NCBI GenBank assembly: GCA_028285755.1 | Contig: JANQOQ010000006.1 | Location: 186,001 to 250,000 of the forward strand | Direction: 5' to 3' | Length of the DNA: 64,000 nucleotides | Origin: Puniceicoccaceae bacterium | GTDB taxonomy: Bacteria > Verrucomicrobiota > Verrucomicrobiia > Opitutales > JAFGAQ01 | Part shown: positions 17,157-54,516 of the stretch, in pieces | Numbering within the stretch: the first letter of the stretch is position 1 | Layout of the letters: every line of letters begins with the position of its first letter | Translations under genes and position numbers: made by a program | Notes under the pieces: generated by a model | Seen by the model: only the letters and a program-made list of their open reading frames with translations | Databases searched by the model: none | What the model was told of the DNA's origin: nothing

Positions 17157-17356
17157 TTTAAAGAAGATTAAAATTAAGGGTGTATAATTCAAGTTTTTGG
17201 ATATAAAACACCTGCCTGACAGATTCAAGACTCGATGATCTACAGGATAATCCAAGAAACTTTATCCCAATTAAAGCAGGTTAACTACATGGGATATCAA
17301 TATATTAGAGCAGTTTTAGGTTTTGGGCGTTGGTGACGATGAAATAGGCTATTTCC

Positions 17357-18883: not shown

Positions 18884-18907
18884 GTTAAGCGCACAGAGAA
18901 GCTTATC

Positions 18908-20404
18908 ATGAAACCCTTCTGGCTGCACCTCAAAGTCATCCCACTTTTCTTAGCGGGGCTCACCCATGCGGATGAGCCCTACAAAGCGGATTGGGATTCC
19001 CTGAGAGCTTACACCTGCCCGGAATGGTTTCAGGATGCAAAGTTCGGCATCTACGCACACTGGGGGGTATACTCAGCCGCTCTTGGTAGTAGAAATACCG
19101 ACTGGTATGGCCGCAATATGTACGAAAAGGGTCACCCGAATCATGAGTTTCACACAAAGACCTATGGAGATGTCTCAGCGTTCGGCTATAAGGATTTGAT
19201 CCCGCTCTTCACCGCAGAAAAATTTGATGCCGAAGAGTGGGCGGACCTTTACGTGGAAGCCGGTGCCCGTTTTGCAGGGCCGGTTGCCGAGCATGCGGAT
19301 GGCTTCTCCATGTGGGACTCGAAGGTCAATCCCTGGAACAGTGTGGACATGGGCCCACGACGCAATGTCGTTGCAGAAATGGAAAAAGCCATACGCAAAC
19401 GCGGTCTCAAATACCTGACCAGTTTTCATCATCAGTGGCTCTGGGGTTGGTTCCCCACCTGGGATGAATCCACGGACGCCAGCGATCCGGAATACGCTTC
19501 GCTGTACGGTCCTAAATACCCGCCAACTGCACGAAGAATCGAAGTAGAGGGTAGGGGTGAGGCCAACATGTATGCGGACCCGCTGCCCAGTAACGCGTTT
19601 AACCAGGCCTGGCTGGAAAAAGTAAAGGAAGTCGTCAGTGAATACTCTCCGGATCTGCTTTGGTTTGATAACCGCATGCAGCTGTTGCCCGAGGAAATCC
19701 GCACCGAAATGGCCGCCTTCTATTACAATCATTCGCTCTCTCAGGGCATAGAACCGGTACTCACCTACAAGCGCCCGGACATGAAGCTGGGAACCGCCAC
19801 CATCGATCTCGAACGCGCCCGCATGCCCGATATTTACCCCGAGCCCTGGCTGACGGATACCTCAGTATCTCGCTCTTCCTGGTCCTATGCGACCGATCTG
19901 GAGTACTACACCACCAACCGCATCATCGATGACCTGGTGGATATCGTCAGCAAGAACGGCTGTATGCTGCTCAATATCGCACCGCATCCGGATGGCACTA
20001 TACCCGAAATCCAAAAAAGGAAGCTTCGGGAAATCGGTAAATGGCTGCGACTCAATGGCGAGGCCATCTATGGAAGCCGCCCCTGGTTAATCTACGGAGA
20101 AGGCTCCAGCGTAACGCCCACCGGGCACCTGGCCGACCTGAAATTCATCGGTTACAGCCCGGATGATATTCGCTTTACCACAAAGGGCGAACAGCTCTAT
20201 GCGATCGCGTTGGATTGGCCGGAAACCGGAGTGCTTGAAATAAACAGCCTCAGTGACTCTAAATATTCAACTGCGATCAGAGGCATTGAGCTCATCGGGC
20301 ATAAGGAGCCTCTCAACTGGGTTAAGACGGTAGACACACTCAAAGTGTATTTACCTGAGATCAAGCCCGGTAATCACGCATTTGTATTCAGAATTCTACG
20401 ATAG
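18908..20404 (+). CDS. Alpha-L-fucosidase-like protein, GH29, altered active-site motif
   Basis: The 498-aa secreted GH29 paralogue has a signal peptide ([20 protein letters not shown]). It keeps [10 protein letters not shown] (His51), the nucleophile segment [10 protein letters not shown] (Asp254) and [16 protein letters not shown]. The pair of His that binds fucose in the family (HHDGF) is here [11 protein letters not shown], so the second His is Ala130. That suggests altered sugar specificity, such as a substituted fucose or galactose, rather than loss of function, because the rest of the barrel is well kept. It lies 24 nt after the first fucosidase and 4 nt before a sulfatase, so the set may act in sequence on one glycan. 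Confidence 0.92.
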
Positions 20405-20408
20405 TGTT

Positions 20409-37554: not shown

Positions 37555-38229
37555 ATGGAAGTATCAGATACTGCATTTGTTCCAGTGTTTTTACCTAATA
37601 AACAGTTAGAAGAGCCTGACCGTGTACCGGATTCAGACAAGGTGGTGCTTAAAGCAACCGGTCTCAATGAAAGAGCCAATACTCCGACGATCACAGAATC
37701 GTCACTTCCAATCGCATTCAGCGGCGATATTCGTCAATACACTGCATCTCAGCCTTTGCAGGATGGAGAAGAAGGTGAGGAATCTTCTCTGACCGACGAT
37801 CAGCTCACACCCGAAGAGGAAGAGCAGGTGGCAAAGTTGAAGCAACGGGATGCTGAAGTGCGTGCACACGAGCAGGCACACCTTGCAGCAGCCGGCTCGC
37901 TGGCGACCGGGGGCATCCAATATCAGTATCAGACCGGACCCGATGGGAAACAATACGCTATCGGAGGCAGCGTTCAGCTCGACACTTCTGAAGAAAAATC
38001 TCCTGAAGCGACCATTCAAAAGGCTCAGCAGATCCGGAGAGCCGCCCTTGCCCCGGCAGATCCTTCACCCCAGGATGTGAAAGTTGCTTCCCAGGCACTG
38101 CAAATGGAAGCGGAAGCGCGCCGCGAAATAACGGAACAGTCGCAGGAAGTCGAAGACGATAAGGAGAATTTACCAGAGGATGTCGTTACAGATATTCAGG
38201 GATTAACCGGGCAATCCAGCTCAGTCTGA
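37555..38229 (+). CDS. SprA-related putative metalloprotease (CJM1_0395-type)
   Basis: The 224-aa protein matches the SprA-related family of putative metalloproteases. Its core runs from the coiled region EEEEQVAKLKQRDAEVRAHE through HEQAH (residues 105-109, an HExxH zinc motif) to LAAAGSLATGGIQYQYQTGP, YAIGGSVQLDTS and QKAQQIRRAALAPADPSPQD. The N-terminal about 75 aa are low complexity and acidic. No signal peptide is visible. Family function is not established. It is divergent from the cytochrome gene and overlaps the convergent membrane-protein gene by 9 nt. Confidence 0.88.
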   Translation: MEVSDTAFVPVFLPNKQLEEPDRVPDSDKVVLKATGLNERANTPTITESSLPIAFSGDIRQYTASQPLQDGEEGEESSLTDDQLTPEEEEQVAKLKQRDAEVRAHEQAHLAAAGSLATGGIQYQYQTGPDGKQYAIGGSVQLDTSEEKSPEATIQKAQQIRRAALAPADPSPQDVKVASQALQMEAEARREITEQSQEVEDDKENLPEDVVTDIQGLTGQSSSV

Positions 38230-40398
38230 AGTATCAGCACCCAGTAGCCAGCGCGGCATCCAGATAGCCATCAACATTAAAAGTGCACTCGCAATAATAC
38301 CCATTAAGGCGATGAAATCCCATACGGGCTCATTGATGAGCCATTCGTTTTTGTAGTTTGTTACCAGAGGTGGCAGTATCCATGTGAGATAAATGAACCC
38401 TAAATTGAAACTTAATAATATACGGGTAACGATCGCACTCGCCTGAGCCCCCAGCCACACCAGCCAGACTATCGATAGTAGCAGCATCAGATAGTTGCCT
38501 TGATGGAGTATCGTATGCCCGGGGATAAAGATCATCAGCACCCACAGAACCAATGAGCCCAGAATTATGATCGGGAAAGCCCATAAGAGCTTTGCCGGAG
38601 CTTTCAGTAGCACTATGGGCAAGAGTATGAAGAATGCCAGGTAGGGCACCAGCGACTGAAAAAAATGCAGGAACATTCCACTTCGCAGAAGCAAGAACTC
38701 ATGAAAGTATTGGAGTGGAAAAAGAAAACCATAGCTGATCGACCAGTTTCCCCAAAGTGTCTGGATGTTTGCCCATTTGCCCGCGAACCACTCCTGCAGA
38801 GTGAGCCCACTGTATTGCCCGGTTAATAAGCTGACAAAAGACTCCTCAGTCGGCGGGGGATGTCCCGCAATATGCCATTTGAGCAATCGGTCCCCGGGCG
38901 GATCAATCCCCTTCTGATAAATGAGCCATAAGGCATATAAGGCGATAACCGGCACAATCACGCGAAGCCATTGCCGAATCGGTGGCAACTTTCCCAACAA
39001 CAGAGCGAGGCCAAAAATCACGGGCAATACGATAATACTCCCCCCATGCGAGAGCACTGCAAAAACGACCGATAGACCGAGAAGATAGGAGCGCAGTTCT
39101 GGATTTTTAGGCTTCGGCGCCCAGAGACAATACAGCGTAACCATAGTGAAGGCCGCAGCAATGAGTTTGGGCCATACATAAAAGCTATTCATTAGAAATA
39201 CCGACGAGCAGGCCATTGCAATGACTACCCATAGAGCATGTCTTGCGGATTGCCCGAGGCCGCGTATCAATACATAAACCATAGGGAGAACCAATGCTTG
39301 CAGCAGGACTGAAACCGCATGATACGCAATCAAAGGATCGAATGCCCAGAGCCGGCTCGGCAATACCAAAGCGGCCTGCAGGGGAGGGCGATCGCTGCTG
39401 AGCCAGTCCATGAAAAAGGGCCTGAGTGGTTCAGAGTGGTAAAACTTACTCGCAAAGAGATACGGCAGATAGTTATCGCCGGGTAGGGGATTGCTCAGAT
39501 AGCGTGCCTGCGAAGCCTCAAGCCCGTAGCTCCAACCGCCATTTAGGAAACCGGCAGACAGACTAAAGAGCGCTGCGAATAACCAAAGTAGCAGAGGCAT
39601 TCGGATGTCCGCTTGTTTAAAGTATCCATAGATCGATTCCCTGCCTTGCCAGCAGATAGCAAGACTTAATCCATAGACCAGGATTACTAAAAATAGGCCC
39701 GCGATGCTGCTTATAAGGAATACAAAGAAAGTGAGGTATAGAACAACTAAAGAACCGAACACAGCAGCAATCCAGTGCTCTGCCGAGTGTCCGTCGATAT
39801 TGTATTTTGGTTTTAACAACAGCATTATCGCCAGACCGGGTATTAAGAGCTGCAGCATGCCGAACACTACCGAATAGCCATAATTGGCCATATCGCTAAA
39901 GCTTGAACTTGGCTTTATTTTAAAATTATCCGGCAGCGGATCAGAGATGCGAAGGATATGGTCTTCTGTAATGGTCACCTGAGAACTCACCCGGAATTTT
40001 GCAGATTTTGACCGCCACTCTTTGGGTAAATTCCAGCTTAAAAGCTCCCATTTCTGATCCGTAAGCGGAGGGTTGAAGCGAATCTCAAGAACTTGATTTT
40101 CATCGAGAGTATCGACCAGCTCAAACCGATAGTTGTTTTGGTAAATACTATACTGGGCCAACAGCGCAAAGGAATCTCCCAGGGTTAAATCGCCGGACTC
40201 GTACAGCACATCGCCCGCAGTGTTAGCTTTCGCAAAATCAGTATTCAGCTCGTAGAAAATCAGCTCCTTGAGTATATCTAAATCTACATCATAACGATCA
40301 CTCAGATCGACTGGAGTTGCTACAGGCTGCATCGCATCCTGAGCGGATACACCGAGCGCCACGAATGCTAACAGCATCATAAAGCCTGCGAGTCTCAT
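38221..40398 (-). CDS. Large GT-C-like membrane protein with periplasmic N-terminal domain
   Basis: The protein is 725 aa from ATG 40398, with ribosome site GGAGGG 7 nt before it; the longest frame adds 28 residues inside the upstream gene. It starts with a signal peptide (MRLAGFMMLLAFVALGVSA), then about 170 aa of periplasmic beta-rich sequence (VLEIRFNPPLTDQKWELLSW), and then about 12-13 membrane segments to the end. The loop LSSDRPPLQAALVLPSR, with GDNYLPYLFASKFYHSEPLR before it, resembles the acidic loop of GT-C glycosyltransferases. Its start overlaps the partner stop by 4 nt (ATGA). It probably transfers a lipid-linked sugar outside the inner membrane; the substrate is unknown. Confidence 0.78.
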   Translation of the reverse strand: MRLAGFMMLLAFVALGVSAQDAMQPVATPVDLSDRYDVDLDILKELIFYELNTDFAKANTAGDVLYESGDLTLGDSFALLAQYSIYQNNYRFELVDTLDENQVLEIRFNPPLTDQKWELLSWNLPKEWRSKSAKFRVSSQVTITEDHILRISDPLPDNFKIKPSSSFSDMANYGYSVVFGMLQLLIPGLAIMLLLKPKYNIDGHSAEHWIAAVFGSLVVLYLTFFVFLISSIAGLFLVILVYGLSLAICWQGRESIYGYFKQADIRMPLLLWLFAALFSLSAGFLNGGWSYGLEASQARYLSNPLPGDNYLPYLFASKFYHSEPLRPFFMDWLSSDRPPLQAALVLPSRLWAFDPLIAYHAVSVLLQALVLPMVYVLIRGLGQSARHALWVVIAMACSSVFLMNSFYVWPKLIAAAFTMVTLYCLWAPKPKNPELRSYLLGLSVVFAVLSHGGSIIVLPVIFGLALLLGKLPPIRQWLRVIVPVIALYALWLIYQKGIDPPGDRLLKWHIAGHPPPTEESFVSLLTGQYSGLTLQEWFAGKWANIQTLWGNWSISYGFLFPLQYFHEFLLLRSGMFLHFFQSLVPYLAFFILLPIVLLKAPAKLLWAFPIIILGSLVLWVLMIFIPGHTILHQGNYLMLLLSIVWLVWLGAQASAIVTRILLSFNLGFIYLTWILPPLVTNYKNEWLINEPVWDFIALMGIIASALLMLMAIWMPRWLLGADTSD

Positions 40399-41024
40399 TG
40401 AGAAACCCTCCTTTCGATAAGCTGCATTCCAAACGTCAGAAAAATACTCATGATGATAAAGATCATAGAAACAACCCACCATTGAAGTTGCCCGATATAG
40501 GCTAGCTGCTCCTCAAAATGCTGAGACGCTTTAAAAGTGATGGATGGGTCCTGGCTATTGGGCTGCACACCAATTTTCATAGCATTCTGCCCATATGCGA
40601 CCGAATCCAACTCCCTCGAAGAACCATACCCCTGAAGCGGGAAATCTATTCTGCCCCAAAACAAATAGGGCCTGAGCTGAATGGATTCGATTTCAACTTC
40701 AACCATCGTATCACCCGTACTCACTGCAGGATCAAAGCGCAGCATCTCGAAGCGGGAACCTTTAACCGGGTAAATGAGGTTATGCCACTCATTCAGCACT
40801 TCGATCCGGTTATGAATCGAGAAGCAATGTACAATTTCTCCATCTTGAGAAATATAGAGATCGGTAATTACAGGCTCAGAGGCACGCGCTTTTATGAGTA
40901 TCCAGGCATCAAAATTCAGTTGGGCAAACGTCAAAGCTCCTGCAGCAATCAAATTTAAGAATATCCATTTAATCAGTTTGCCGGAAGATGCGCGGTAGCG
41001 ACTTTTTTCCATTGAAGATATCAT
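40395..41024 (-). CDS. Membrane-anchored partner of the GT-C-like protein, beta-sandwich domain
   Basis: The protein is 209 aa from ATG 41024 (AGAAGAG ribosome site); ATG 41012 and GTG 41045 are alternatives. Residues about 20-40 (IFLNLIAAGALTFAQLNF) and about 185-205 (WVVSMIFIIMSIFLTFG) are membrane segments that enclose one periplasmic domain. That domain contains MLRFDPAVSTGDTMVEVEIE, which resembles the RxDP...G...I.I.L module seen in large bacterial polysaccharide transferases. The ATGA overlap with the next gene points to a complex. No enzyme activity is suggested. Upstream it is nearly back-to-back with the HxH protein gene (23-nt gap). Confidence 0.7.
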   Translation of the reverse strand: MISSMEKSRYRASSGKLIKWIFLNLIAAGALTFAQLNFDAWILIKARASEPVITDLYISQDGEIVHCFSIHNRIEVLNEWHNLIYPVKGSRFEMLRFDPAVSTGDTMVEVEIESIQLRPYLFWGRIDFPLQGYGSSRELDSVAYGQNAMKIGVQPNSQDPSITFKASQHFEEQLAYIGQLQWWVVSMIFIIMSIFLTFGMQLIERRVSQ

Positions 41025-41047: not shown

Positions 41048-41845
41048 ATGCCTGGAGTTTATATCGATTGCCACACTCATTTATATAAGCAATTCCCGAT
41101 AGCAAAATTTTTCGAAATTGCCGAGGCCAATTTCATTGAGCAGTCAAAGCAATCTTCTCCTGCAATATTTGGTATATTTTTGTTTTCTATACCTAAGATC
41201 GGCCTCGAATTACCCAGCTCGGATGATTACAGAGCACTTGAAAACGAGCTTCTTTGGGAACGCCAACCCTGCGACGAAGTAGGGGCATACTGTTTTAAGA
41301 CGACCCAAAACAACCTGTTTTTCGTTTTGGAGGGCATTCAACATGCAAGCAGGGAGAAGCTTGAGGTCCTACAGCTCGGAGGAACCCTTAAACCTCAACA
41401 GACGGCCTTACCCTTTCAAACGCTCTTAAGTGCGACGATTTCTGACGAAGAAGCCCTGTGTTCAGTGCCATGGGCTTTTGGCAAATGGGCTGGCAATCGA
41501 GGTATCCTGGTCAAAAATGCCCTGCAAGCACATAAAGAACTCCAACGGTTTTTTCTGGGAGATAATTCAGGCAGAGCACCGTTTATCAACAAGTCAGAGA
41601 TTCTGGATACATTTGAAGCATTCAGAGGATTCAACCTTACCGGGAGCGATCCTCTGCCATTCGCGAATGAGATGCAACGTGTTGGGAAATCTGGAATCAG
41701 GTTCAACGTATCCGACTTTGTTCCAGAACATCCATTGCAATCAATCAGAACAACTTTGCTTTCCGGAAAAGTAGATTCCTACATTCAGTTAAAACCAAGC
41801 CTAAGTTTTCTGATGCATCAAATGCGCTTGCACATAGGTATTTAG
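41048..41845 (+). CDS. Amidohydrolase/PHP-like protein of unknown function
   Basis: The 265-aa protein opens with MPGVYIDCHTHLYKQFPIAK, where the HTH of DCHTHL gives the HxH metal motif at the first strand of TIM-barrel hydrolases. The later parts do not show the other ligands clearly: FFVLEGIQHAS may supply a Glu and a His. The C-terminal SFLMHQMRLHIGI ends abruptly, so the barrel may be incomplete (full members are usually 280 aa or longer). It is divergent from the membrane pair and 85 nt before the epimerase gene, so it may start the glycan cluster. A hydrolase or esterase role is only a guess from the motif. Confidence 0.65.
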   Translation: MPGVYIDCHTHLYKQFPIAKFFEIAEANFIEQSKQSSPAIFGIFLFSIPKIGLELPSSDDYRALENELLWERQPCDEVGAYCFKTTQNNLFFVLEGIQHASREKLEVLQLGGTLKPQQTALPFQTLLSATISDEEALCSVPWAFGKWAGNRGILVKNALQAHKELQRFFLGDNSGRAPFINKSEILDTFEAFRGFNLTGSDPLPFANEMQRVGKSGIRFNVSDFVPEHPLQSIRTTLLSGKVDSYIQLKPSLSFLMHQMRLHIGI

Positions 41846-42916: not shown

Positions 42917-44467
42917 GTGAAGCGGGATCTAGAGGCATTGGAGAATACCTCCTATGATGTGCTGATCGTAGGTGGCGGAATATACGGCGCCAGTATATTC
43001 TATAAGCTATGCAAGGCGGGCTACAAAACAGCACTCATAGATCGGGGAGATTTCGCATCGGGCACCTCTTCCAATAGCCTCAAAATTTTGCATGGTGGCC
43101 TGAGATATCTGCAAAACCTTGATATCTACAAGATGCGGGCCTCAATCGAATCCCGAAGAGAGATATTACGCTATGCGCCTCAGCTTGTAGAACCCTTGCG
43201 CTGCGTCATACCCACTTACGGCTACGGAACCTACAGTAACGAAGTCACACGCAGTGCGCTGTTCCTGAACGATTTGCTGAGTTCTGATAAGAACCAATTG
43301 GTCAGCCCTGCAAATCATTTGGGTAACGGCCAGGTGTGGAAAAAGGAACACTGGAAGATGGAATCGGGTGAGCTTTATCGCAAGCACCACCGGGGTGCGA
43401 TGATCTGGGATGATGCTATACTGCGTGATACTGAACGACTCGTCATCCAACTAATACTCGATGGTTGCAGTCATGGCGGTAGTGCCGGAAATTACCTTGA
43501 ACTGGAATCGGTGGAACCCGGAGAGCTAGGCACCCATCGTGCCCATATTTACAATCGTCTGGATCATACCTCCTTGCAGATTCATAGCCGTGTGGTGATA
43601 AACACTGCGGGCACTGCCATACTCAATCGTATTGAAGCGGATAATGAGAGAAAACTTTTACCCAGATATTGGGCGAAGGGTATAAACCTGATTACGCATT
43701 GCGATTATCCTTATGAGTTTGCTATCGGACTCAACCAAAATTCGCTCGTCCAAAACCTCAAAGAAGCCCGGAAAAAGCGATTCTACTTTTTTGTGCCCTG
43801 GCATGGGAAACTCATGATAGGCACTGAGTATCACTTGTTCGACATAAATGAGGGTTCACCTGAAATCAGTGAGGCCGAGGTCGACGCATTTCTGGAAAGT
43901 ATTCGAGAAGTATATCCAGAACTCAATGTTTCACGGGGCTGTATCGAATATGTGCACAAGGGCATTTTACCCATCAACGACAACAAGTATCTAAGGGATA
44001 CATCGAAGCTGCCTCTGTTGACCCGGGATTTAATTATCGATCATCAAAAAAAGGGAGGCAAAAAGGGGATATTCAGTGTTTGTGGTGTGAAATACACGAC
44101 TGCATTCTATGTCGCCAATAAAATGCTCAAAACCATTCAATCTGCCCATGAACCTTCGGCAGGAGCCTCTGGCAACCAGTCCATGGATTTAAACCGTGCC
44201 AAGCCCCTGGATCTGGATAATCTGACAAGCGAACACATTGAACACCTAATCACGCATGAAATGGCTATGAGCCTATCCGATATACTGCTCCGGAGATTAA
44301 ACGTCAGCGCCCGGGGCAAAATTGATGAAAAATGGGTAGAAATGGCTGCGAATGCACTTACTAAATATTATTCGTGGGACACCCAAACCCGTGAATTACG
44401 CATTCAGGAGTTCTGGGATGAGTGTAAAAGCCATCACTACAAACAAAGGGTCGAAGTGCCATCATGA
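42917..44467 (+). CDS. Glycerol-3-phosphate dehydrogenase-like FAD oxidoreductase (GlpD family)
   Basis: The 516-aa protein begins at a GTG 8 nt after the epimerase stop; a TTG at 42938 is an alternative. The FAD motif VLIVGGGIYGASIFYKLCKA (about 15-34) and IDRGDFASGTSSNSLKILHG are typical of GlpD, as are GGLRYLQNLDIYKM, the PTYGYGTY and HRGAMIWDDAIL region, GKLMIGTEYHLFD, and the C-terminal GVKYTTAFYVA. GlpD oxidises glycerol-3-phosphate (or a similar hydroxy acid) with FAD. The position inside a glycan-assembly run, with an ATGA overlap to the next methyltransferase, suggests a role in making or removing a sugar- or glycerol-derived group. It may not act in central metabolism. Confidence 0.85.
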   Translation: MKRDLEALENTSYDVLIVGGGIYGASIFYKLCKAGYKTALIDRGDFASGTSSNSLKILHGGLRYLQNLDIYKMRASIESRREILRYAPQLVEPLRCVIPTYGYGTYSNEVTRSALFLNDLLSSDKNQLVSPANHLGNGQVWKKEHWKMESGELYRKHHRGAMIWDDAILRDTERLVIQLILDGCSHGGSAGNYLELESVEPGELGTHRAHIYNRLDHTSLQIHSRVVINTAGTAILNRIEADNERKLLPRYWAKGINLITHCDYPYEFAIGLNQNSLVQNLKEARKKRFYFFVPWHGKLMIGTEYHLFDINEGSPEISEAEVDAFLESIREVYPELNVSRGCIEYVHKGILPINDNKYLRDTSKLPLLTRDLIIDHQKKGGKKGIFSVCGVKYTTAFYVANKMLKTIQSAHEPSAGASGNQSMDLNRAKPLDLDNLTSEHIEHLITHEMAMSLSDILLRRLNVSARGKIDEKWVEMAANALTKYYSWDTQTRELRIQEFWDECKSHHYKQRVEVPS

Positions 44468-45177
44468 GCCAAGTTTCTGCAAATCAACCAGATATTGAAA
44501 GTGCTTCTGAGCAATATGCCCGCCGTTTCAGCGGTACCGTTGGCAAATACCTTCTCGAACGTCAGGAGCAGCTGGTAATGAGCAGCATTGAAGGGAAGGG
44601 GCTTAAGATCCTGGAAGTAGGGGGCGGACATGCTCAGCTCACCCCGGCAATCATTGAAAATGGTCATACGCTCACAGTCCTCGCCAGCCATGAATGCTGT
44701 GCCAACAGGCTCAAGCCTTATCAGGATTCGCTTGAATTTCAAGTAGGCAAGCTAACGCAAATACCTTATGAGGATGAATCGTTCGATTATGTAATAGGCA
44801 TGCGTTTAATGGCCCATTTGGAGGATGGAGATGCATTGATTCGGGAGTGTTGCCGGGTTGCATCTCGAGGGGTCATACTCGACTATTCGGATAAACGCAG
44901 CCTTAACTGCCTATCCAATCTGCTGTTTACATTCAAAAAGGGCTTTGAGAAAGACACTCGGAAGTTTCACCTGCAAAACCGGAAGTTTTTTAGGCAAGCA
45001 TTCACTCAAAACGGATATGCGGACGTGGGATTCAAAACTCAATTTTTTTTACCTTTAGTTTTGCACCGCGCCTTAAAATGTGTGCCCGTGTCGCGGGTTA
45101 TGGAGAGTATCTGCGCAATACTGGGGATGCGATATTTGTTTGGATCTCCGGTTATTGTGAGTGCTGTGCGCAGTTAG
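44464..45177 (+). CDS. Class I SAM-dependent methyltransferase
   Basis: The 237-aa protein overlaps the GlpD-like gene by 4 nt. The SAM-binding motif I is LKILEVGGGHAQLTPAII (about 42-59). Motif II/post-I and IV are IPYEDESFDYVIGMRLMAHL, followed by DALIRECCRVASRGVILDYS. The C-terminal part (KGFEKDTRKFHLQNRKFFRQ and after) is basic and may hold the acceptor site. Such enzymes in sugar clusters methylate a hydroxyl or an amine of a sugar or lipid. The acceptor is not known. Confidence 0.88.
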   Translation: MSQVSANQPDIESASEQYARRFSGTVGKYLLERQEQLVMSSIEGKGLKILEVGGGHAQLTPAIIENGHTLTVLASHECCANRLKPYQDSLEFQVGKLTQIPYEDESFDYVIGMRLMAHLEDGDALIRECCRVASRGVILDYSDKRSLNCLSNLLFTFKKGFEKDTRKFHLQNRKFFRQAFTQNGYADVGFKTQFFLPLVLHRALKCVPVSRVMESICAILGMRYLFGSPVIVSAVRS

Positions 45178-45183
45178 CAATCT

Positions 45184-46356
45184 ATGAAAATTCTGATCAT
45201 AGCTCCGCATCCGTTTTATAAGACCCGCGGCACGCCCATTGCGGTTAAGTTACTGGCTGAAAATCTATCCAAATTGGGGCATCAAGTTACCATTTTCACA
45301 TTTCACGAAGGGGAACCGATCAAAAACGATGCAATCCCAATACGCAGAATCCGCAAACCGCTGGGAGTAAGCAATGTGCCACCCGGGCCATCGATTAAGA
45401 AGCTCATTTGTGACGCCATTTTGCTCCCGTCGCTGATCATCCATTTGCGTAATCAGCGCTATGATATCGTGCATGCGGTGGAAGAGGGTGGGTTCATGGC
45501 ATGGGTACTTAAAATCTTTTATGGCATCCCATACGTGTATGATATGGACTCCTACATGTCTGAGCAGATTTTTGATAAATACCCACTGTTCAGGGCTTTA
45601 TCGACTCCTGTTCAATGGTTTGAGAATCAAATGATAAAAAACAGCGTCGGCGCTTTGGCGGTTTGCCAATCCCTTGCAGAAAAAGTGATCGCTGCCCAAA
45701 ACAAGCTGCGAGTGGACTTACTGCAGGATGTCAGCCTGTTTGAGCTCATACCTGGGAAGCCTATTGAACTGCCGAAACCCGAAACTCCTCAAACGAAAAC
45801 CCTGATGTATGTGGGAAACCTGGAGTATTATCAGGGGATCGATCTATTGTTGGAAAGTTACTCCAAGATTGCCAAGCAAAGGCCAGGTGCCCCAAGCCGT
45901 CTAATCATCGTGGGAGGGGATGATAAATCGGTATCCCTCTATAAGCAAAAGGCCTCCGATCTTGGTATTTCCGAACACACATATTTCCTGGGACCCAAAA
46001 GTGTAGAGTTTCTCGAATCATTACTGACACAGGCCGACATTCTGGTATCTCCCCGCATTCAGGGAGAGAACACACCCATGAAAATCTACTCCTATCTGGA
46101 TGCGGGTAATGCGATTCTCGCAACGCGTATGCGAACCCATACCCAGGTTTTAAACGATGAAAATGCTTGCCTCGTCGAAGCAAATACAGATGCCATGACA
46201 GAAGGAATTACCCGATTACTGAGAGATACTGATTACCGGGATGAACTAGGCAAATCGGCCAAAGAAACACTCGAAACCCATTACTCACTTGATTGCTATC
46301 AGGACAAACTCAAAGAATTTTATAAATATGTGGAAGCTCAATTAAGGAGCGATTGA
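45184..46356 (+). CDS. Glycosyltransferase family 4
   Basis: The 390-aa GT-B enzyme has an N-lobe start MKILIIAPHPFYKTRGTPIA (residues 1-20) and a C-lobe with LMYVGNLEYYQGIDLLLESY, RLIIVGGDDKS, YFLGPKSVEFLESLLTQADI and the donor-site segment QGENTPMKIYSYLDAGNAIL, where the family has its ExxPxxxxEA-like motif. It uses a nucleotide sugar with retention. It follows the methyltransferase by 6 nt and overlaps the next frame's TTG region, whose real ATG is 6 nt after its stop. It builds the repeat unit of a surface glycan or glycolipid; the sugar is unknown. Confidence 0.92.
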   Translation: MKILIIAPHPFYKTRGTPIAVKLLAENLSKLGHQVTIFTFHEGEPIKNDAIPIRRIRKPLGVSNVPPGPSIKKLICDAILLPSLIIHLRNQRYDIVHAVEEGGFMAWVLKIFYGIPYVYDMDSYMSEQIFDKYPLFRALSTPVQWFENQMIKNSVGALAVCQSLAEKVIAAQNKLRVDLLQDVSLFELIPGKPIELPKPETPQTKTLMYVGNLEYYQGIDLLLESYSKIAKQRPGAPSRLIIVGGDDKSVSLYKQKASDLGISEHTYFLGPKSVEFLESLLTQADILVSPRIQGENTPMKIYSYLDAGNAILATRMRTHTQVLNDENACLVEANTDAMTEGITRLLRDTDYRDELGKSAKETLETHYSLDCYQDKLKEFYKYVEAQLRSD

Positions 46357-46361
46357 TTTGT

Positions 46362-47342
46362 ATGAAAGCACTGGTTACAGGAGCTACAGGCTTCACGGGA
46401 AGTCGGCTGGTTGAGAAACTACTGGAAGTCGGGCATACAGTGCGCGTTCTGGTGCGGGATCGCAAGCGGCTCAAGTCTTCACTCATCCATAAAGTCGAAG
46501 TTTTTGAAGGTGATATTCGCGACAAAGCGTACGTCATGGAAGCTGTCCGGGGAATGGACGTAATCTTCAATCTCGCAGCTTATTACCGCAGCTCAGATAC
46601 TCAAAAGAAAATTTACTACGATATCCATGTAGAGGGGACCCGACACTTACTGGATGCAGCACTCAAACATAAAGCCGCCCGCATCGTCCATTGCAGCACC
46701 GTAGGGGTTTACGGCGATGTTGGAAATACGGAAGCTGATGAACGCCAGCCTTTCGCACCGGGTGACATCTATCAGACGACCAAGCTTTATGGCGAAATGC
46801 TGGTTACCGAATACCATAAAAACAAGGGCCTGCCGACAACCATTATCCGACCCACTGCCATTTATGGGCCTGGAGACGAGCGCTTGCTTAAACTCTTTAA
46901 GATTGCCAGCCGAAGACCTACCTTTCTTCTGGGGGATGGCAAAATCTACTACCATATGATCTACGTAGACGACCTCGTAAATGCATTCATCCTCGCAGCG
47001 GAGTCAGAACAAGCCGTCGGTAAAGCTTTCATTGTGGGAGGTGATGAGTGCCTGCAGCTCAATGAACTCATCGATATTATTGGCCCCAAATTGGGCAACC
47101 AACCCAAGAGAGTGCACCTGCCGGCATACCCATTCCAGCTCTTGGGCAGTGCCTGCGAAAAAGTGTTTGGCTTTTTCAAATTGAAGCCCCCGCTATACCG
47201 CAGACGAGTCGATTTCTTTACTAAAAGTCGCCGGTTTAATACCCAAAAAGTTAAAAATGTGCTTGGATACTCGACCCAAGTGAGTCTTGATGAAGGGCTT
47301 GGGATCACAGCTAAGTGGTATCAAGAGAACAAGCTCATCTGA
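46362..47342 (+). CDS. NAD-dependent epimerase/SDR (sugar or isoprenoid 3-beta-HSD-like)
   Basis: The protein is 326 aa from ATG 46362 (AAGGAG ribosome site); a TTG 9 nt upstream was rejected. The NAD motif VTGATGFTGSRLVEKLLEVG is at residues 4-23. The catalytic segment is HCSTVGVYGDVG, and the YxxxK reads IYQTTKLYGE. Later parts include RPTAIYGPGDERLLKLFKIA and VDDLVNAFILAAE. The tail (about 255-300) is long and basic, as in hopanoid- and dihydroflavonol-reductase-like SDRs. It may oxidise or epimerise a lipid- or nucleotide-linked sugar. It is next to the first SDR in function but not closely similar to it. Confidence 0.88.
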   Translation: MKALVTGATGFTGSRLVEKLLEVGHTVRVLVRDRKRLKSSLIHKVEVFEGDIRDKAYVMEAVRGMDVIFNLAAYYRSSDTQKKIYYDIHVEGTRHLLDAALKHKAARIVHCSTVGVYGDVGNTEADERQPFAPGDIYQTTKLYGEMLVTEYHKNKGLPTTIIRPTAIYGPGDERLLKLFKIASRRPTFLLGDGKIYYHMIYVDDLVNAFILAAESEQAVGKAFIVGGDECLQLNELIDIIGPKLGNQPKRVHLPAYPFQLLGSACEKVFGFFKLKPPLYRRRVDFFTKSRRFNTQKVKNVLGYSTQVSLDEGLGITAKWYQENKLI

Positions 47343-48217: not shown

Positions 48218-48958
48218 ATGAACACATACAAAGTAGGGGAGAGTATTGACCGCAAGCGAAGCCCACTTTCACAATACAAGGAGTTGATGGTAGGGACTTC
48301 GGGCTGGTTCTACTTCATCTACTTTGAACTCGTTATTACCCTATTTTCAGGAATACCTGGACTTTTGGGGCTGTTTTTAAGGCGCATCGCTTACAGACCC
48401 TTGTTCAAAAAGATGGGAAGAGGGGTCATCATCGGTAAACACATCGTACTTCGCCATCCTCACAAAATTTCCGTCGCAGATGGCAGCTTTATTGACGATC
48501 ATGTAATGCTGGATGCCAAGGGCGAAGCGAATGATGGCATACAGCTTGAGGAGGCAGTATTTATAGGTAGAAATTCGATACTTAGCTGCAAAAACGGAAA
48601 CATTATTCTAAAGGCACGATCAAATATAGGCTTTAATTGCGAGCTATTTGCATCTCAAACCATGATCGTGGGTGAAGATACACTCATTGCCGCTTACAGT
48701 TATCTTCTAGCTGGTGGCACTTATCAGACTCATCTTAAGGCCATACCGGTCTCAAAATTTCCAGATTATGAGAGCGATCAGAACCTGACAATCGGTAGGG
48801 GCGTTTGGATCGGAGCGCACTGTGTAATTCTTGCAGGTTCAAATATCGAAGACGATGTGATTATCGCTGCTGGTTCTATTTTGAACAAAAAGGCGAAGAC
48901 GAAGTCTATTTATGCTGGTACACCGGCTAAACTGATATCGCCCCGCGAAGAGGCTTAG
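48218..48958 (+). CDS. Left-handed beta-helix acyltransferase (hexapeptide repeat)
   Basis: The 246-aa protein starts with an amphipathic membrane-associated region (about 30-60, FYFIYFELVITLFSGIPGLL). Hexapeptide repeats follow from about residue 70: MGRGVIIGKHIVLRHPHKIS, VADGSFIDDHVMLDAKGE, IGRNSILSCKNGNIILKA, and the C-terminal IGRGVWIGAHCVILAGSNIE with VIIAAGSILNKKA and YAGTPAKLI. This is the acetyltransferase type that modifies sugars with acetyl-CoA or a similar donor. It ends the seven-gene run; a 125-bp gap follows before the secreted protein. An O-acetyl on the glycan fits the nearby SGNH esterase. Confidence 0.9.
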   Translation: MNTYKVGESIDRKRSPLSQYKELMVGTSGWFYFIYFELVITLFSGIPGLLGLFLRRIAYRPLFKKMGRGVIIGKHIVLRHPHKISVADGSFIDDHVMLDAKGEANDGIQLEEAVFIGRNSILSCKNGNIILKARSNIGFNCELFASQTMIVGEDTLIAAYSYLLAGGTYQTHLKAIPVSKFPDYESDQNLTIGRGVWIGAHCVILAGSNIEDDVIIAAGSILNKKAKTKSIYAGTPAKLISPREEA

Positions 48959-49083
48959 TCTCAGTATTTAACCCACATAATTAAGATTTTAATGTAAAAA
49001 ATAAGGTTGATTTTCAAAATTCAATTCTTGAATAATTAGCTTGTTATAACATTTGGATTACTAGGAAATTGGAGAAAAGGAAT

Positions 49084-50550
49084 ATGAAGCATCTCATAGC
49101 GCTGATTACAGCAGGAGTGATCTCTTGCTTAACCATTCAAGCCCAGGATACTGGACTTGAGGTATTACCGGAGGGTTTCCCGACAGGTGACCTAACGTAT
49201 GATCCGGAAACCGGAATATACACATCACCCACATTTGGAACATTCACCATAATCACGGACGCAACTCAAACGACTAAGGTCAACCATACAATATTGGGGC
49301 CGTTTATCTGGAACTACAATGCAGAAATCCAGCAAGTCATTCTTACGACGGACTGGTGGGGACCATTAATCACATACGTTCCCGGTGAGGAACCAACAGG
49401 AATACTTCCATTCCCCTATGTGCTGAGTATTTACCAGGGTGCTACTTACTTTGTGGAAGTCACAGGCACTCAACCTTTCTCATTCTATAATCATACCCAG
49501 GCACGCGATGAGAATGGTCTGCTGGTATTTGATGAAAATGGAAACCCGGTCGACGTAGGCTGGCAGGGAGCGATTGGTCGTCCCCTTACCGATGCAGAAG
49601 GTTACTACAACGATACCCAATCCCGCTTTTTGCAAATGCAGCAAACTTCGCAGGCTGTAGAAAACGCTAAAAATTCACTGCAGGAAGTACCCGTAACCAC
49701 CACAGTAAACTTAGATGCTTACTACAATGAGCTAATACGGGTCTTCAACGTATTCTTGGATTTCCATGAGTTGTTTGTATTTAATTATAATCGATGTGGT
49801 GCGGCACCCGGAGTACTCAACGCCTTAGGCGCACCTCAGGAGGATATTGATGCTGCATTGGCCTGGACCGCAATGCTGCCTGATCTCGCTGAGATGGAGC
49901 AAATATTCAATGACACTCAAAACTGTGTCAACAATGCGACGAATATCCTTGCGGCAAAGAAAGCTGAGCAAGAAGTATTGATTGCAAATCAGCCGGCTCC
50001 TACACCCCCGTCTAATCCTGTGGTACCTGTTAATCCGGGAACACCTGTTAATCCGGGAACACCGATCGTTCCGATCGATGGGGATGATGCGATCGCAGTA
50101 TCCAGCATTGATATTGCTGGAGGGCACATGGCATCCAATGCATTCAGCTGGCCGATCACAGCAAGATTCAATAGCATCTCTTTTGGGGGTGGTTTCTACA
50201 CAGTAAGTGCTGATGGTCTCGAAAACTGGCCTTTTGCAACCTACTCATGGTGGGCACCTCATACAGACCCGGGTGTAAATGCAATTCTCTGGATACTAAT
50301 ACCTCAGGGCAACGGCCGTTACTGGGCAATGTCAGTAGAATGGTATGCAAGCTGGCGTGGAAGTCAGACTTATCACTCCACAAACTTGTATACAATCCAG
50401 CAATTGCTTGGATTCCCCTGGCAACCCACACCGGGCCAGGATTATGGTTGGGTAATGATGCACTCCTCATCCTCATTTGCAGGAAGCATTGATAATGGGG
50501 TGTTCTCACAACAGCGTTCGAATATCATTATTGGAACTTTCCAACCCTAA
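49084..50550 (+). CDS. Unrecognised secreted protein with Pro-Asn-Gly linker
   Basis: The protein is 488 aa from ATG 49084 (ribosome site GGAGAAAAGG); a longer TTG frame was rejected. The signal peptide is MKHLIALITAGVISCLTIQA. The N-terminal half (about 20-290) has a beta-rich region (TSPTFGTFTIITDATQTTKV, GPFIWNYNAEIQQVIL) and a helical segment with two Cys (CGAAPGV and QNCVNNAT). A linker of tandem PVNPGT units (about 312-330) leads to a C-terminal domain rich in Trp and Tyr (YSWWAPHTDPGV, YWAMSVEWYASWRGSQTY, GQDYGWVMMHSSSS). That composition suggests glycan binding. No family was recognised. It is followed by a strong terminator. Confidence 0.78.
   Translation: MKHLIALITAGVISCLTIQAQDTGLEVLPEGFPTGDLTYDPETGIYTSPTFGTFTIITDATQTTKVNHTILGPFIWNYNAEIQQVILTTDWWGPLITYVPGEEPTGILPFPYVLSIYQGATYFVEVTGTQPFSFYNHTQARDENGLLVFDENGNPVDVGWQGAIGRPLTDAEGYYNDTQSRFLQMQQTSQAVENAKNSLQEVPVTTTVNLDAYYNELIRVFNVFLDFHELFVFNYNRCGAAPGVLNALGAPQEDIDAALAWTAMLPDLAEMEQIFNDTQNCVNNATNILAAKKAEQEVLIANQPAPTPPSNPVVPVNPGTPVNPGTPIVPIDGDDAIAVSSIDIAGGHMASNAFSWPITARFNSISFGGGFYTVSADGLENWPFATYSWWAPHTDPGVNAILWILIPQGNGRYWAMSVEWYASWRGSQTYHSTNLYTIQQLLGFPWQPTPGQDYGWVMMHSSSSFAGSIDNGVFSQQRSNIIIGTFQP
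50029..50063 (+). repeat. Two 18-bp tandem units in the linker of the secreted protein
   Basis: Two adjacent copies of GTTAATCCGGGAACACC (50029-50046 and 50047-50063) encode VNPGTP twice. They form a flexible Pro-Gly linker. Confidence 0.85.
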
Positions 50551-50573: not shown

Positions 50574-50604
50574 AAGGCGCTTGATTCATTCAAGCGCCTT
50601 TTTT
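50574..50604 (+). terminator. Intrinsic terminator after the secreted-protein gene
   Basis: A perfect 11-bp stem AAGGCGCTTGA / TCAAGCGCCTT with a TTCAT loop is followed by a run of Ts ending at 50604. It is 24 nt after the stop codon and isolates this gene from the deacetylase that starts at 50646. Confidence 0.93.
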
Positions 50605-50645: not shown

Positions 50646-51785
50646 ATGCCAATCATCCAAAAGATAACAAAGGCGGGAAAAGAGCTACCCATCGAACTGG
50701 CTCGATACTTACGCAGGCAATATCCCGCATTCGTTACGCGAAATCTGGCAGAGCTGCCAACTAATGATGTGCCGGTATTTATGTTTCATACCGTTGAAGG
50801 AGATGCATTTGAGAGCCAACTCGCATACCTTAAACATAATGGCTATCACACACTCGATGCGGATGAATTGTACCGTTTTTTACAGGGGCAACGAACGCTC
50901 GACAAACCATCCGTTGCACTCACTTTTGACGACGGAGATGTAAGCTGGCACCAGGTCGCTCAGCCTTTGCTCGAAAAATATGATTATCGGGCCATTGGGT
51001 TTATAGCACCTCATTACGTTGCAGAAGATACTCCCAAGACTCAGGGAAAAGCCTGGATGTCCTGGAGCCAGATCAACGAGCTCCATCGCTCCGGTCATTG
51101 GGATATTCAATCGCATACCCACTATCACGATCATATCTTCACAGGATCCCAATTAGTAGATATACATGATCCGTCTAGAGTGGCCAATCCCCTGGGCCTG
51201 GATACTCCCTGGATCTACCAAGAGGGTGGTGAATATAGTAACGAATTACCCAAAGGTCATCCGATATACGCATACTCATCTCGCTTTGAATCAAAACCTA
51301 TGTATTTGCCAAATGCATCTTTCCTAGACGATTGCATACAAAAGGCCAATAGTACTGCAGCAACATCCTCCAACTCCAGAGACTTTAAAAAAACACTCAA
51401 ACTATTTCACAATCAGCAAGTTAAGCTTCATAAAGCCGGTCGCTATGAGACTCAGGAAGAGCAGCATCAGCGTATACTACTCAATTTAAGAACTGCTAAG
51501 GAGACATTGGAGAATCAGTTAGGCCATGAAGTACAACACCTCTGCTACCCCTGGGGAATCGGCTCAGATCTAAGTGTCCAAATTAGTAAGGAAGCGGGAT
51601 ACATATCCAATTACTGGGGCTCAGTGAGAGGCAGAAATCAAAATAAGACCGGAGATTCTCCGTACCATATTTGTCGTTTAAAGGATGACTATTTACTGAG
51701 ACTTCCGGGCGAGGGCAGGAAGAGTCTGTTGGATATTTTTAAGGCTAAGGCAAAAAGACGATCCCAAACCTTAGATATCTATTGA
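50646..51785 (+). CDS. Polysaccharide deacetylase-family protein (NodB-like)
   Basis: The 379-aa protein has the NodB homology domain. Motif 1 is VALTFDDGDVSWHQ (Asp-Asp, catalytic base and metal). Motif 2 is WDIQSHTHYHDHI (HxxxH-type metal ligands). A later motif is HEVQHLCYPWGIGS. No signal peptide is visible, so it may act in the cytoplasm or at the membrane on a lipid-linked sugar. An insertion (about 185-280) separates the motifs. It would remove an N-acetyl or O-acetyl group. It is followed after 32 nt by a GT2 gene, then a methyltransferase and a flippase-like gene, all in one direction. Confidence 0.9.
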   Translation: MPIIQKITKAGKELPIELARYLRRQYPAFVTRNLAELPTNDVPVFMFHTVEGDAFESQLAYLKHNGYHTLDADELYRFLQGQRTLDKPSVALTFDDGDVSWHQVAQPLLEKYDYRAIGFIAPHYVAEDTPKTQGKAWMSWSQINELHRSGHWDIQSHTHYHDHIFTGSQLVDIHDPSRVANPLGLDTPWIYQEGGEYSNELPKGHPIYAYSSRFESKPMYLPNASFLDDCIQKANSTAATSSNSRDFKKTLKLFHNQQVKLHKAGRYETQEEQHQRILLNLRTAKETLENQLGHEVQHLCYPWGIGSDLSVQISKEAGYISNYWGSVRGRNQNKTGDSPYHICRLKDDYLLRLPGEGRKSLLDIFKAKAKRRSQTLDIY

Positions 51786-51817
51786 TTTGCGCAAGCAGCT
51801 AGCTCAATGATGTTGAT

Positions 51818-52843
51818 ATGGAATTAGTTACCATCGGAGTCGTTAACTATAACGGCATGGCACACTTGGCAGATACTTTGCGTGCATTGGAGGCTTTGGA
51901 CTATCCAAACATGCGTATTCTAGTAGCAGATAATGCATCGACGGATGGTAGTCGAGAACATGTGCTCAAGCATTTCCCGCAAATTAGAGTGATTGAGTTA
52001 AACCAAAACCTCGGACTGCCTGGAGCACGCAACGCTTTATTGGAAGCTGCTGAAAGTGAATATGTCCTCATACTGGATAACGATATCGAAATGGAATCTG
52101 ATTCCCTACGCAAATTGATCGAAGTCATGGAATCGAACCCCCAAATTGCTGCGGCGCATCCTGAAATCTGCGATCCCAACGACGCAAACGTCCATCGTTA
52201 TAATGGGGGCAGCATTCATTATTTATGCACCCTCATTGCAAGAGAAGCCCCTCAGACGCAAGAGGCCCGACCAAATTATGAAATCTTCGATGTTGTATCC
52301 GGCGGAACTTTAATCATGCGAAAATCCGTCGCTGAAAAAGTGGGAAACTTTGACGCTGATTATTTCTTCAATTGGGAGGATGGAGATTTCACCTCCCGAT
52401 TAACGCTTGCCGGCTATCTTTGCGTGAATGTCCCGGCAGCGAGAGTCCACCACAAGGGTAAAGCCCGTGGTAAATCCAAAGTATTCTACCAGATCCGCAA
52501 TCGCTGGTACTTCATAGCTAAGTTGTACTCCTGGAAAACGATCCTACTCATATCCCCGGCATTAATCGTCTTTGAGTTAAGTATGCTCTTATTCATGCTA
52601 TTTAAGGGGGCCTTTGTCGACTACGTCAGAGGAAGTTTCGCTGCACTCAAAGACTTTGGCACACTAATGCAAAAACGCCGCCGCTTCAAAACCCTAAAAA
52701 ATAAGCGTGATCGGGAATGGCTTAAAAAAGGAGATATGTTTGTCCCCGATTCTTTAGTGAAACCCGGCTTGCTGCAGTCTTTTGCTCAACTTTACTATAA
52801 GCTACTGAATGGATATTGGTCATTGGTAAAACCTTTATTGTAA
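51818..52843 (+). CDS. Family 2 glycosyltransferase (rhamnosyl/WbbL-like)
   Basis: The 341-aa enzyme has a GT-A domain: LVTIGVVNYNGMAHLADTLR (residues 3-22), ILVADNASTDGSREHV, LNQNLGLPGARNALL, the DxD region VLILDNDIEMES, and FNWEDGDFTSRLTLAGYL (catalytic-base region). A C-terminal hydrophobic stretch (about 245-268, ILLISPALIVFELSMLLFML) suggests membrane attachment, as in WbbL/RfbN-like rhamnosyltransferases. It adds a sugar to the growing glycan, possibly next to the deacetylated residue. Confidence 0.9.
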   Translation: MELVTIGVVNYNGMAHLADTLRALEALDYPNMRILVADNASTDGSREHVLKHFPQIRVIELNQNLGLPGARNALLEAAESEYVLILDNDIEMESDSLRKLIEVMESNPQIAAAHPEICDPNDANVHRYNGGSIHYLCTLIAREAPQTQEARPNYEIFDVVSGGTLIMRKSVAEKVGNFDADYFFNWEDGDFTSRLTLAGYLCVNVPAARVHHKGKARGKSKVFYQIRNRWYFIAKLYSWKTILLISPALIVFELSMLLFMLFKGAFVDYVRGSFAALKDFGTLMQKRRRFKTLKNKRDREWLKKGDMFVPDSLVKPGLLQSFAQLYYKLLNGYWSLVKPLL

Positions 52844-52880
52844 GAATTCATTCGACACAGGCGTCAGCGTCCCGAACATA

Positions 52881-53522
52881 TTGAGTGCTGTGAATATCCA
52901 GGAAAGACTCAAAAAAATTGCCCGAAAACAGAGATGGTTGATACGTTATTATTTTAATCGTAAATACTCGGAAAATGATCCGTATTTTCTTACCACCTCA
53001 GACTTTGAGCGAAATAAGATGGAGCATGTGGTACGAGTCCTTAAAGAATATAGTCCCAAAGATACTATGATGGAAGTAGGCTGTGGGGAGGGGATACTCG
53101 CAAACCTGATCGCGGGGGACATTGGCCAATATGAAGGGTTTGATATATCCCAAAAGGCAATCACACGGGCCATTGAGCGGAACAAGAATCATGCGAATGT
53201 GAGTTTTCAAGTTCGGGACTTCTATAAAATGAGCCTCCCTGAAAAGCACTATGATGTCATGATATTCTCAGAGGTGCTGTTTTATTTTTCATTGGAAGAG
53301 CTCCAGCCCATTCCTGGTAAAATATTCGAGGCATTAAAACCAAATGCCTACTTGGTATTAGTTCACTGTAGGGCTACCGGGGATGATGAATCCGGCAATA
53401 TGATTAAGGATTATGGGGCTAAAACCATTCATGATCTTTTTGTTCATTTTCGCGAATTTGAGCTCATGCAGGATGAATGGGATGAGAATTACCGCATTAC
53501 AGTACTAAAACGCGCTGAATAA
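52881..53522 (+). CDS. Class I SAM-dependent methyltransferase (NodS-like)
   Basis: The 213-aa protein begins with a TTG (52881) or the GTG at 52890; no early ATG exists. The SAM loop MMEVGCGEGILANLIAG (about 60-76) is followed by GFDISQKAITRAIER, FSEVLFYFSLEEL and LKPNAYLVLVHCRATGDD. The pattern resembles NodS, which N-methylates deacetylated chitin oligosaccharides. Here a NodB-like deacetylase and a GT2 lie just upstream, which makes N-methylation of a deacetylated amino sugar a reasonable guess. It is 37 nt after the GT2 gene and 4 nt before the flippase-like gene. Confidence 0.82.
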   Translation: MSAVNIQERLKKIARKQRWLIRYYFNRKYSENDPYFLTTSDFERNKMEHVVRVLKEYSPKDTMMEVGCGEGILANLIAGDIGQYEGFDISQKAITRAIERNKNHANVSFQVRDFYKMSLPEKHYDVMIFSEVLFYFSLEELQPIPGKIFEALKPNAYLVLVHCRATGDDESGNMIKDYGAKTIHDLFVHFREFELMQDEWDENYRITVLKRAE

Positions 53523-53526
53523 TCTT

Positions 53527-54516
53527 ATGCCTGCTTCCCGTTCAGTTTTCACATGGGGTAATCTACTTAAGACCGTGGTAAGCCTCGGAGTCATCTATTG
53601 GCTCTATTTGAATGTGGATTGGGAAACGTTTGGAGATACTTTTCAAAACATAGATTACTACTACTTGGGCATATCCATCGCGTTCTTCCTCGTTAACCAG
53701 ATTATCATCGCCTGGAAGTTAAAGCGCATCATCTCAATTGTAGACAGTAATATCCACGCATTGGATATCTTGCGTGCTAATTTCATCGGCAGCTTTTTAG
53801 GAATTATCAGCCCATCCAGTTTGGGGGTAGATGTAGTGCGTGGCTATTATCTCTACCGTTCGGGTGCCGAGAAGGAAGTAGTCATCAGCTCCATGTTGCT
53901 GGATCGTATGCTGGGTATGATCACAGTTATTATTGCGGGTGGGGTGAGCTTGTTCTTTATTGAGAGAGTGCAGGAATATCCTTGGCTGATCTACAGTTAT
54001 GCCTTGATGCTATTGTTAATTGTCGCCTTTGCGTTCTCGCTCAATCTTCGCTTACTCAGCACCGTTGAAAGTGGTGTAACGCGATTGCCATTCAAATGGC
54101 TTGTAAGCCGATTGCTTGAGCTGCTTCAAGCCTACAAGCTTTTTGCCGAAAAGCGTTTTCTACTCTTATTCCCCTTGATACTCTCTGTAGGCGTGATTAT
54201 CCTTCGTATTGTCTCGATATACTACATTACGTTGGCATTGGGGGAGACCATCTTTTGGGGCTATTATTTTTTGATTATACCTACATTAATCATTGCGGTT
54301 ATGCTGCCTATCGCCGTAGCGGGGATCGGTATACGTGAAGGCACCTTAACTGCAATGCTGATGCTTTTTGGAATGACCCAAAACTACGCGGTCGCTACCA
54401 GCCTGGTAATGAGTATAACCATCACACTCACCGTAGTGGTGCTGGGCATAATATTTCTAATGATTAGCCCTAAAAACCTTAGAACCCAACTTAAGGATTC
54501 AAAAGGCCAGGATTAA
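53527..54516 (+). CDS. Lysylphosphatidylglycerol synthase TM / AglD-like flippase-domain protein
   Basis: The 329-aa integral membrane protein (UPF0104/LPG synthase transmembrane family) has about eight membrane segments: residues about 12-30, 42-62 and 85-105, then several to about 315. Family signatures include NFIGSFLGIISPSSLGVDVV with RGYYLYR, VVISSMLLDRMLGMI, and MLPIAVAGIGIREGTLTAML. Members are found with glycolipid or surface-glycan genes and are proposed to flip or support lipid-linked products; the reaction is not proven. Its stop overlaps the convergent esterase gene by 4 nt. Confidence 0.9.
   Translation: MPASRSVFTWGNLLKTVVSLGVIYWLYLNVDWETFGDTFQNIDYYYLGISIAFFLVNQIIIAWKLKRIISIVDSNIHALDILRANFIGSFLGIISPSSLGVDVVRGYYLYRSGAEKEVVISSMLLDRMLGMITVIIAGGVSLFFIERVQEYPWLIYSYALMLLLIVAFAFSLNLRLLSTVESGVTRLPFKWLVSRLLELLQAYKLFAEKRFLLLFPLILSVGVIILRIVSIYYITLALGETIFWGYYFLIIPTLIIAVMLPIAVAGIGIREGTLTAMLMLFGMTQNYAVATSLVMSITITLTVVVLGIIFLMISPKNLRTQLKDSKGQD

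Follow-up and report, generated by a model that had tools for sequence, protein, structure and literature searches.

Two operons for the synthesis of amino-sugar lipids resemble the locus studied here. The gpgSDF operon of Pseudomonas aeruginosa is reported to convert GlcNAc-PG to GlcN-PG, an amino-sugar membrane lipid (PMC12713373), and the hexSDF operon of Clostridioides difficile is reported to yield the aminohexosyl lipid HNHDRG (PMC10128005). We analysed a 64,000-nucleotide stretch of the genome of a Puniceicoccaceae bacterium (assembly GCA_028285755.1, contig JANQOQ010000006.1, positions 186,001 to 250,000; hereafter the window), in which four open reading frames lie on the + strand at 50646-54516. 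They encode a CE4-type, PgaB/IcaB-like polysaccharide deacetylase (DAC; 50646-51785, 379 aa), a family 2 glycosyltransferase (GT2; 51818-52843, 341 aa), a NodS-like class I S-adenosylmethionine (SAM)-dependent methyltransferase (52881-53522, 213 aa, with a TTG start) and a flippase-like PF03706/TIGR00374 membrane protein (FLP; 53527-54516, 329 aa), separated by gaps of 32, 37 and 4 nt. We tentatively propose, at somewhat less than even confidence, that the products of these genes synthesise and export a glycan, linked to a lipid or anchored in the membrane, that carries an N-methyl amino sugar.

The set has the layout of GpgSDF and HexSDF, with adjacent genes for a glycosyltransferase, a deacetylase and an MprF/AglD-type flippase. 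Compared by published annotation, GpgSDF likewise combines a glycosyltransferase, a deacetylase predicted to be cytosolic and an AglD2/YbhN-type flippase in one predicted operon, but GpgS belongs to GT4, GpgD to COG3233 rather than to the PgaB-like CE4 enzymes, and no methyltransferase is annotated (PMC12713373). On the same basis HexSDF matches in its glycosyltransferase, polysaccharide deacetylase and MprF-like flippase, whereas HexS is annotated as a monogalactosyldiacylglycerol synthase and the annotation again holds no methyltransferase (PMC10128005). By analogy, these two operons would be better working models for the window set, here with a methyltransferase added, than the Nod factor pathway.

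Next, we examined the methyltransferase. It scored 58.1 bits against the NodS family PF05401 and slightly more, 62.7 bits, against the generic family Methyltransf_31 (Pfam), and the NodS model NF041650 was the best of 44 NCBIfam models at 62.0 bits. Because the equivalog cut-off of this model is 300 bits, we call the enzyme NodS-like and not NodS. Sequence searches of solved structures gave as best matches phosphomethylethanolamine N-methyltransferase 2 (5wp5, 53 bits over two domains) and NodS (3ofj, 45.5 bits), both of which are N-methyltransferases. We also built a profile from 14 NodS-like proteins, leaving out the window enzyme and its counterpart in G046, a genome from another genus of the same family. 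The two excluded enzymes scored 145.5 and 134.8 bits, respectively, and ten control methyltransferases, nine of them the best non-NodS-like matches from a search of 387 genomes of the phylum, scored 39-67 bits (maximum 66.7). In a phylogenetic tree, all 23 NodS-like rows fell in one clade (86/81), within which NodS, the enzymes of trifunctional fusion proteins and a single Nonomuraea protein joined the window pair (81/78, drawn open). A separate group (92/86) contained the PIG-L-linked enzymes and that of Rubrobacter. Several control branches were long, so deep placing in this tree is uncertain. Judged by these sequences, the window methyltransferase represents a lineage of its own, the third after those of NodS and of the trifunctional-fusion enzymes. 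The resemblance to NodS claimed in the initial annotation is therefore upheld by the NCBIfam, solved-structure and leave-out results, and the enzyme does not match generic methyltransferases only. Structures predicted from the single sequences of the methyltransferase and the deacetylase (mean predicted local distance difference test scores of 42.0 and 34.5) were too poor and were not used.

The initial annotation had also called the set Nod-factor-like, and this part of it did not stand. Rhizobial NodS is described as acting after mono-deacetylation (PMC5080398). The nodulation locus of Rhizobium tropici (L014) shares with the window a NodS-like methyltransferase and a deacetylase in one operon, and its model, like ours, places N-methylation after deacetylation. 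However, its NodS is 25.5% identical to the window enzyme, and the window has no NodA, a deacetylase and a GT2 of other subfamilies, and a flippase in place of NodI and its permease. NodA had no match in the window genome (97% complete) or in G046, whereas the positive control was recovered in 2/2 nodulation plasmids. The window GT2 reached 23 bits against the NodC model, for which the cut-off is 550, and no protein of the genome exceeded this cut-off, the best scoring 49.9 bits. A second CE4 gene of this genome, outside the window (G000:C15:763363-764453), adjoins a GT2 gene with a weak NodC match and possibly belongs to an exopolysaccharide locus. True lipo-chitooligosaccharide synthesis, to which a NodS-like gene beside a deacetylase and a GT2 might have pointed, was rejected on the missing NodA, the NodC scores and a deacetylase that is not of the NodB type; we consider it vanishingly improbable.

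Membership of the deacetylase in CE4 is clear, with 64.7 bits against PF01522 at a gathering score of 23.1; the Pfam matches of all four proteins exceeded their gathering scores. Its best named NCBIfam models were PgaB (92 bits, cut-off 321.9) and IcaB (60 bits, cut-off 248.35), both below the equivalog cut-offs, and the nearest solved structures by sequence were PgaB-type enzymes. The metal-site motif is intact (D95/D96, H157, H161). The window enzyme has TFDDG, HTHYH and CYPWG, and the alignment showed that TFDDG, HTxxH and CYPxG are kept in G046; the stretch of NodB that bears motifs 4 and 5 is absent from the window enzyme in this alignment. An insert of ~95 residues is common to the window and G046 enzymes and absent from the other aligned enzymes. 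PgaB and IcaB, which deacetylate poly-GlcNAc, are exported enzymes. The window deacetylase, in contrast, carries this long insert; as it has no signal-like, hydrophobic N-terminus, it is predicted to be cytosolic. The GT2 scored 94.6 bits against PF00535 and has one strong C-terminal hydrophobic segment (residues 242-260); in sequence it resembles single-transfer enzymes more closely than processive enzymes of the NodC type. The flippase scored 127.5 bits against PF03706 and is the only protein of this family found in the window genome.

We then asked how far the set is kept in relatives. The G046 locus (L005) has the deacetylase, GT2, methyltransferase and flippase genes in identical order, with identities to the window proteins of 45, 54, 57 and 55%, indicating that the four genes form a unit; there, a second GT2 gene follows the flippase and the flanking genes run in the opposite direction. 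In the window, a terminator-like hairpin of 11 pairs with a T run (50574-50600, + strand) lies just upstream of the deacetylase gene, between it and the preceding gene, which suggests that the four genes have their own transcript. The gene 3' of the set is convergent and overlaps it by four bases. Together, the open reading frames, Pfam matches and order kept in G046 confirm the initial reading of four closely spaced genes in one direction and support its steps of deacetylation, glycosylation, methylation and flipping. Among 177 genomes of the order, the deacetylase was found at E <=1e-20 in just two, the window genome and G046, and the methyltransferase at E <=1e-10 in these two and in G040 alone, whose copy (33% identity) adjoins a PIG-L deacetylase gene. 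Within the 387-genome sample of the phylum, only the window genome and G040 matched the methyltransferase at E <=1e-12, G046 not being among that sample's matches. As part of the four-gene set, the methyltransferase occurs in 2/5 genomes of the family. When a collection of genome contigs was scanned with the deacetylase, the sole match was a distant Geodermatophilus locus.

Evidence on the partners of NodS-like enzymes came from a plasmid collection, in which 137 records matched the methyltransferase. We surveyed the best match per genus, giving 17 genera among 40 of the 137 records. A PIG-L or CE4 deacetylase was fused to the NodS-like gene or lay <=5 kb from it in 15/17 genera and in 0/10 controls (Fisher p 8e-6), although the comparison is unmatched because the test loci and the controls, which were taken from the window's phylum, come from different phyla. 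The two misses were Nonomuraea, where no deacetylase was found, and the NodS of Cupriavidus, whose nodB lies outside the 10-kb stretch. The G040 locus with its PIG-L neighbour (L050) was not counted as a control, its methyltransferase being itself NodS-like. No NodS-like gene was found near the deacetylases of Fusobacterium (L052) or Leptospira (L053), and the methyltransferase adjoining the latter did not match the NodS-like profile. A recurrent run of acyl-CoA-dehydrogenase-like, PIG-L deacetylase and NodS-like methyltransferase genes, often with a glycosyltransferase, was observed in several phyla (L013, L019, L020, L021, L023, L025, L028).

In cyanobacteria and alphaproteobacteria, a GT2, a NodS-like methyltransferase and a CE4 enzyme are fused in single proteins (L010 7961-11437; L011 8405-11407; L012 8393-11473; L015 6498-9410; L016 3405-6407). 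Three of these, from plasmids of Gloeothece, R. leguminosarum and Sulfitobacter (L010, L011 and L012), are annotated as trifunctional glycosyltransferase/class I SAM-dependent methyltransferase/polysaccharide deacetylase, and a 970-aa Mesorhizobium protein (L015) has the same layout. The window methyltransferase matched the middle of all four proteins and the window deacetylase their C-terminus; the window GT2 matched the N-terminus in three of the four (not R. leguminosarum), weakly, at 40-52 bits. The fusions thus combine the three activities of the window set in domains of which the methyltransferase and the deacetylase are related to its enzymes, and they lend independent support to the idea that these activities act together. 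They differ from the window set in being one protein with the order GT2-MT-CE4 and in lacking an annotated flippase gene nearby; most of them have ABC transporter and glycosyltransferase genes in the vicinity. Among the papers listed, our literature search, thin on subscription journals, found no publication on the trifunctional fusion protein and none on topic for an N-methyl sugar with an exopolysaccharide deacetylase or an N-methylated aminosugar glycolipid with a flippase.

The layout of gpgSDF and hexSDF, taken together with rhizobial N-methylation after deacetylation, leads to a pathway of glycosyl transfer, deacetylation, N-methylation and flipping. We infer its reactions, acceptor, sugar, step order and direction of flipping from the sequences and by analogy. 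At the inner face of the membrane, the GT2 would transfer an N-acetyl-hexosamine onto a lipid acceptor. The amine would then be freed there by the cytosolic deacetylase and methylated with SAM by the NodS-like enzyme, after which the PF03706 protein would flip the product outward. An N-methylated amino-sugar lipid or surface glycan, which the initial annotation had suggested, would on this basis be the most economical product. Several points weigh against such a pathway. The GT2, GpgS (GT4) and HexS come from different families of glycosyltransferases, and the likeness to GpgSDF and HexSDF is thus one of layout only. As described in these two reports, flipping is proven for neither operon, and the products of GpgD and HexD still form without the flippase gene (PMC12713373, PMC10128005). 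The methyltransferase lies far under the NodS equivalog cut-off, and the controls of the plasmid survey were unmatched. Furthermore, the PF03706 family is mostly found away from deacetylases in the phylum: near the 89 higher-scoring FLP-relative loci that we scanned (2/89 without a flippase by a small in-house profile), CE4 deacetylases occurred in 2/89 and PIG-L deacetylases in 0/89.

Alternatively, the NodS-like enzyme might O-methylate a sugar hydroxyl as a cap, with the deacetylase merely exposing a free amine. Methyltransf_31 did score slightly above NodS in Pfam, and MMAR_2193, which is described as NodS-like, is reported to be an O-methyltransferase of polyketides (PMC8730385), a further point against N-methylation. 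However, the association of the NodS-like clade with deacetylases in 15/17 genera fits an amine substrate, and the solved structures closest to the window enzyme in sequence are those of N-methyltransferases, so we regard O-methylation as unlikely. The Arn pathway offers another template, in which an amino sugar built on polyprenyl phosphate would lose its acyl group to the CE4 enzyme and be flipped, and a GT-C (PMT-type) transferase would then hand it to an outer acceptor. The window encodes a PMT-family protein (38221-40482) that could play this part; in L092 the flippase has a PMT-like protein as its neighbour, and in L106 a flippase lies next to a relative of the window protein. Nevertheless, large multi-pass proteins were no commoner near FLP relatives (22/87) than at other loci (5/24), leaving the proposed link to GT-C transferases unsupported by these counts; none is present on the 11-kb G046 contig, and neither an ArnC nor an ArnD model is among the NCBIfam matches listed. 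An Arn-like route is accordingly quite improbable.

A more substantial rival is that the set is an arm of a larger locus (41.0-54.5 kb) that decorates a surface-polysaccharide repeat unit or a complex glycolipid; this would leave room for N-methylation, but not for a simple glycolipid as the product. The initial annotation delimited the four-gene set at 50646-54516, and this extent holds for the set itself but leaves out the adjoining longer conserved locus (41.0-50.5 kb). This locus encodes, on the + strand, a 265-aa protein without a Pfam match (up265, 41048-41845), a second methyltransferase that is not NodS-like (MT237, 44464-45177), a GT4 glycosyltransferase (45184-46356), an HpnA-like nicotinamide adenine dinucleotide-dependent short-chain dehydrogenase/reductase (SDR; 46353-47342), a hexapeptide-repeat acyltransferase (HexAT, 48218-48958) and a predicted secreted protein (49069-50550). 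The GT4, the SDR, MT237 and the acyltransferase would build the product. Homologues of up265, of the GT4 (30%) and of the N-terminal part of the secreted protein (32% over 270 aa) lie beside the set in G046. In L092, which is from G211 in another family of the phylum, HpnA, deacetylase, GT2 and flippase genes occur together; the deacetylase is 37% identical to that of the window, aligned over 364/379 residues, and adjoins an SDR 36% identical to the window's. In L087 (G296), a GT2 and a flippase accompany an MT237-HpnA fusion (45% in the SDR part) and a different, NodB-like CE4 enzyme, whose N-terminus looks by eye like an export signal. L100 holds HexAT, HpnA, an 861-aa protein, FLP, up265, GT4 and MT237 in a single run, and around the flippase the gene ends overlap. 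On the other hand, the terminator-like hairpin parts the set from the upstream genes, the flanking genes in G046 are oppositely directed, and in the part of the window's genes that was scanned, none was recognised as a polymer gene of the Wzy/Wzx type. We therefore consider this explanation rather unlikely.

Other relatives of these upstream genes are scattered among the FLP-relative loci. Homologues of up265 lie near FLP relatives in L099, L100 and L169, those of MT237 in 5/89 loci (L085, L087, L088, L100 and L169), those of the GT4 in L100, L107, L117, L119 and L169, and those of HexAT in 14/89 loci; HpnA-like SDRs were present in 30/89 at E 1e-8, ten of them with >170 bits. MT237, when used as a plasmid control query, matched 6 records and did not serve as a neighbourhood control. 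In L087 (6872-8767), the relatives of MT237 and of the SDR are joined in one protein, a hint that both act in sequence. The secreted protein, a relative of which lies near FLP in G003 (L106), contains the proline-rich repeat PVNPGTPVNPGTPIVP, and in its G046 relative the N-terminal part precedes FG-GAP and UnbV_ASPIC domains. A glycerol-3-phosphate-dehydrogenase-like flavin adenine dinucleotide protein (42917-44467; 144 bits, cut-off 360) also lies within this glycan locus and has relatives in L107 and L174. Elsewhere in the window (14380-22016), two sulfatases and two alpha-L-fucosidases are encoded close together, suggesting breakdown of a sulfated, fucose-rich polysaccharide.

Neither L092 nor L087 has a NodS-like gene. 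An older flippase locus thus appears to have gained first the pair of deacetylase and GT2 genes and later the NodS-like gene. With more doubt than we attach to the N-methylated product itself, we suggest that this lineage may have added a NodS-type N-methyltransferase to the deacetylase-GT2-flippase set that is seen without it in G211, so that its lipid would carry a secondary (N-methyl) amine in the outer leaflet, and that NodS may be one branch of a wide family of amino-sugar N-methyltransferases coupled to deacetylases, to which the trifunctional fusions and the PIG-L-linked enzymes would also belong. What is new here, as far as sequence can tell, is a cassette of the amino-glycolipid type with a NodS-like methyltransferase added. 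If the proposal is true, published amino-glycolipid cassettes such as GpgSDF and HexSDF would gain a methylation step, and it would be a general rule that NodS-like methyltransferases act on amines exposed by a partner deacetylase. It would also explain what the trifunctional fusion proteins do and point to an origin for NodS.

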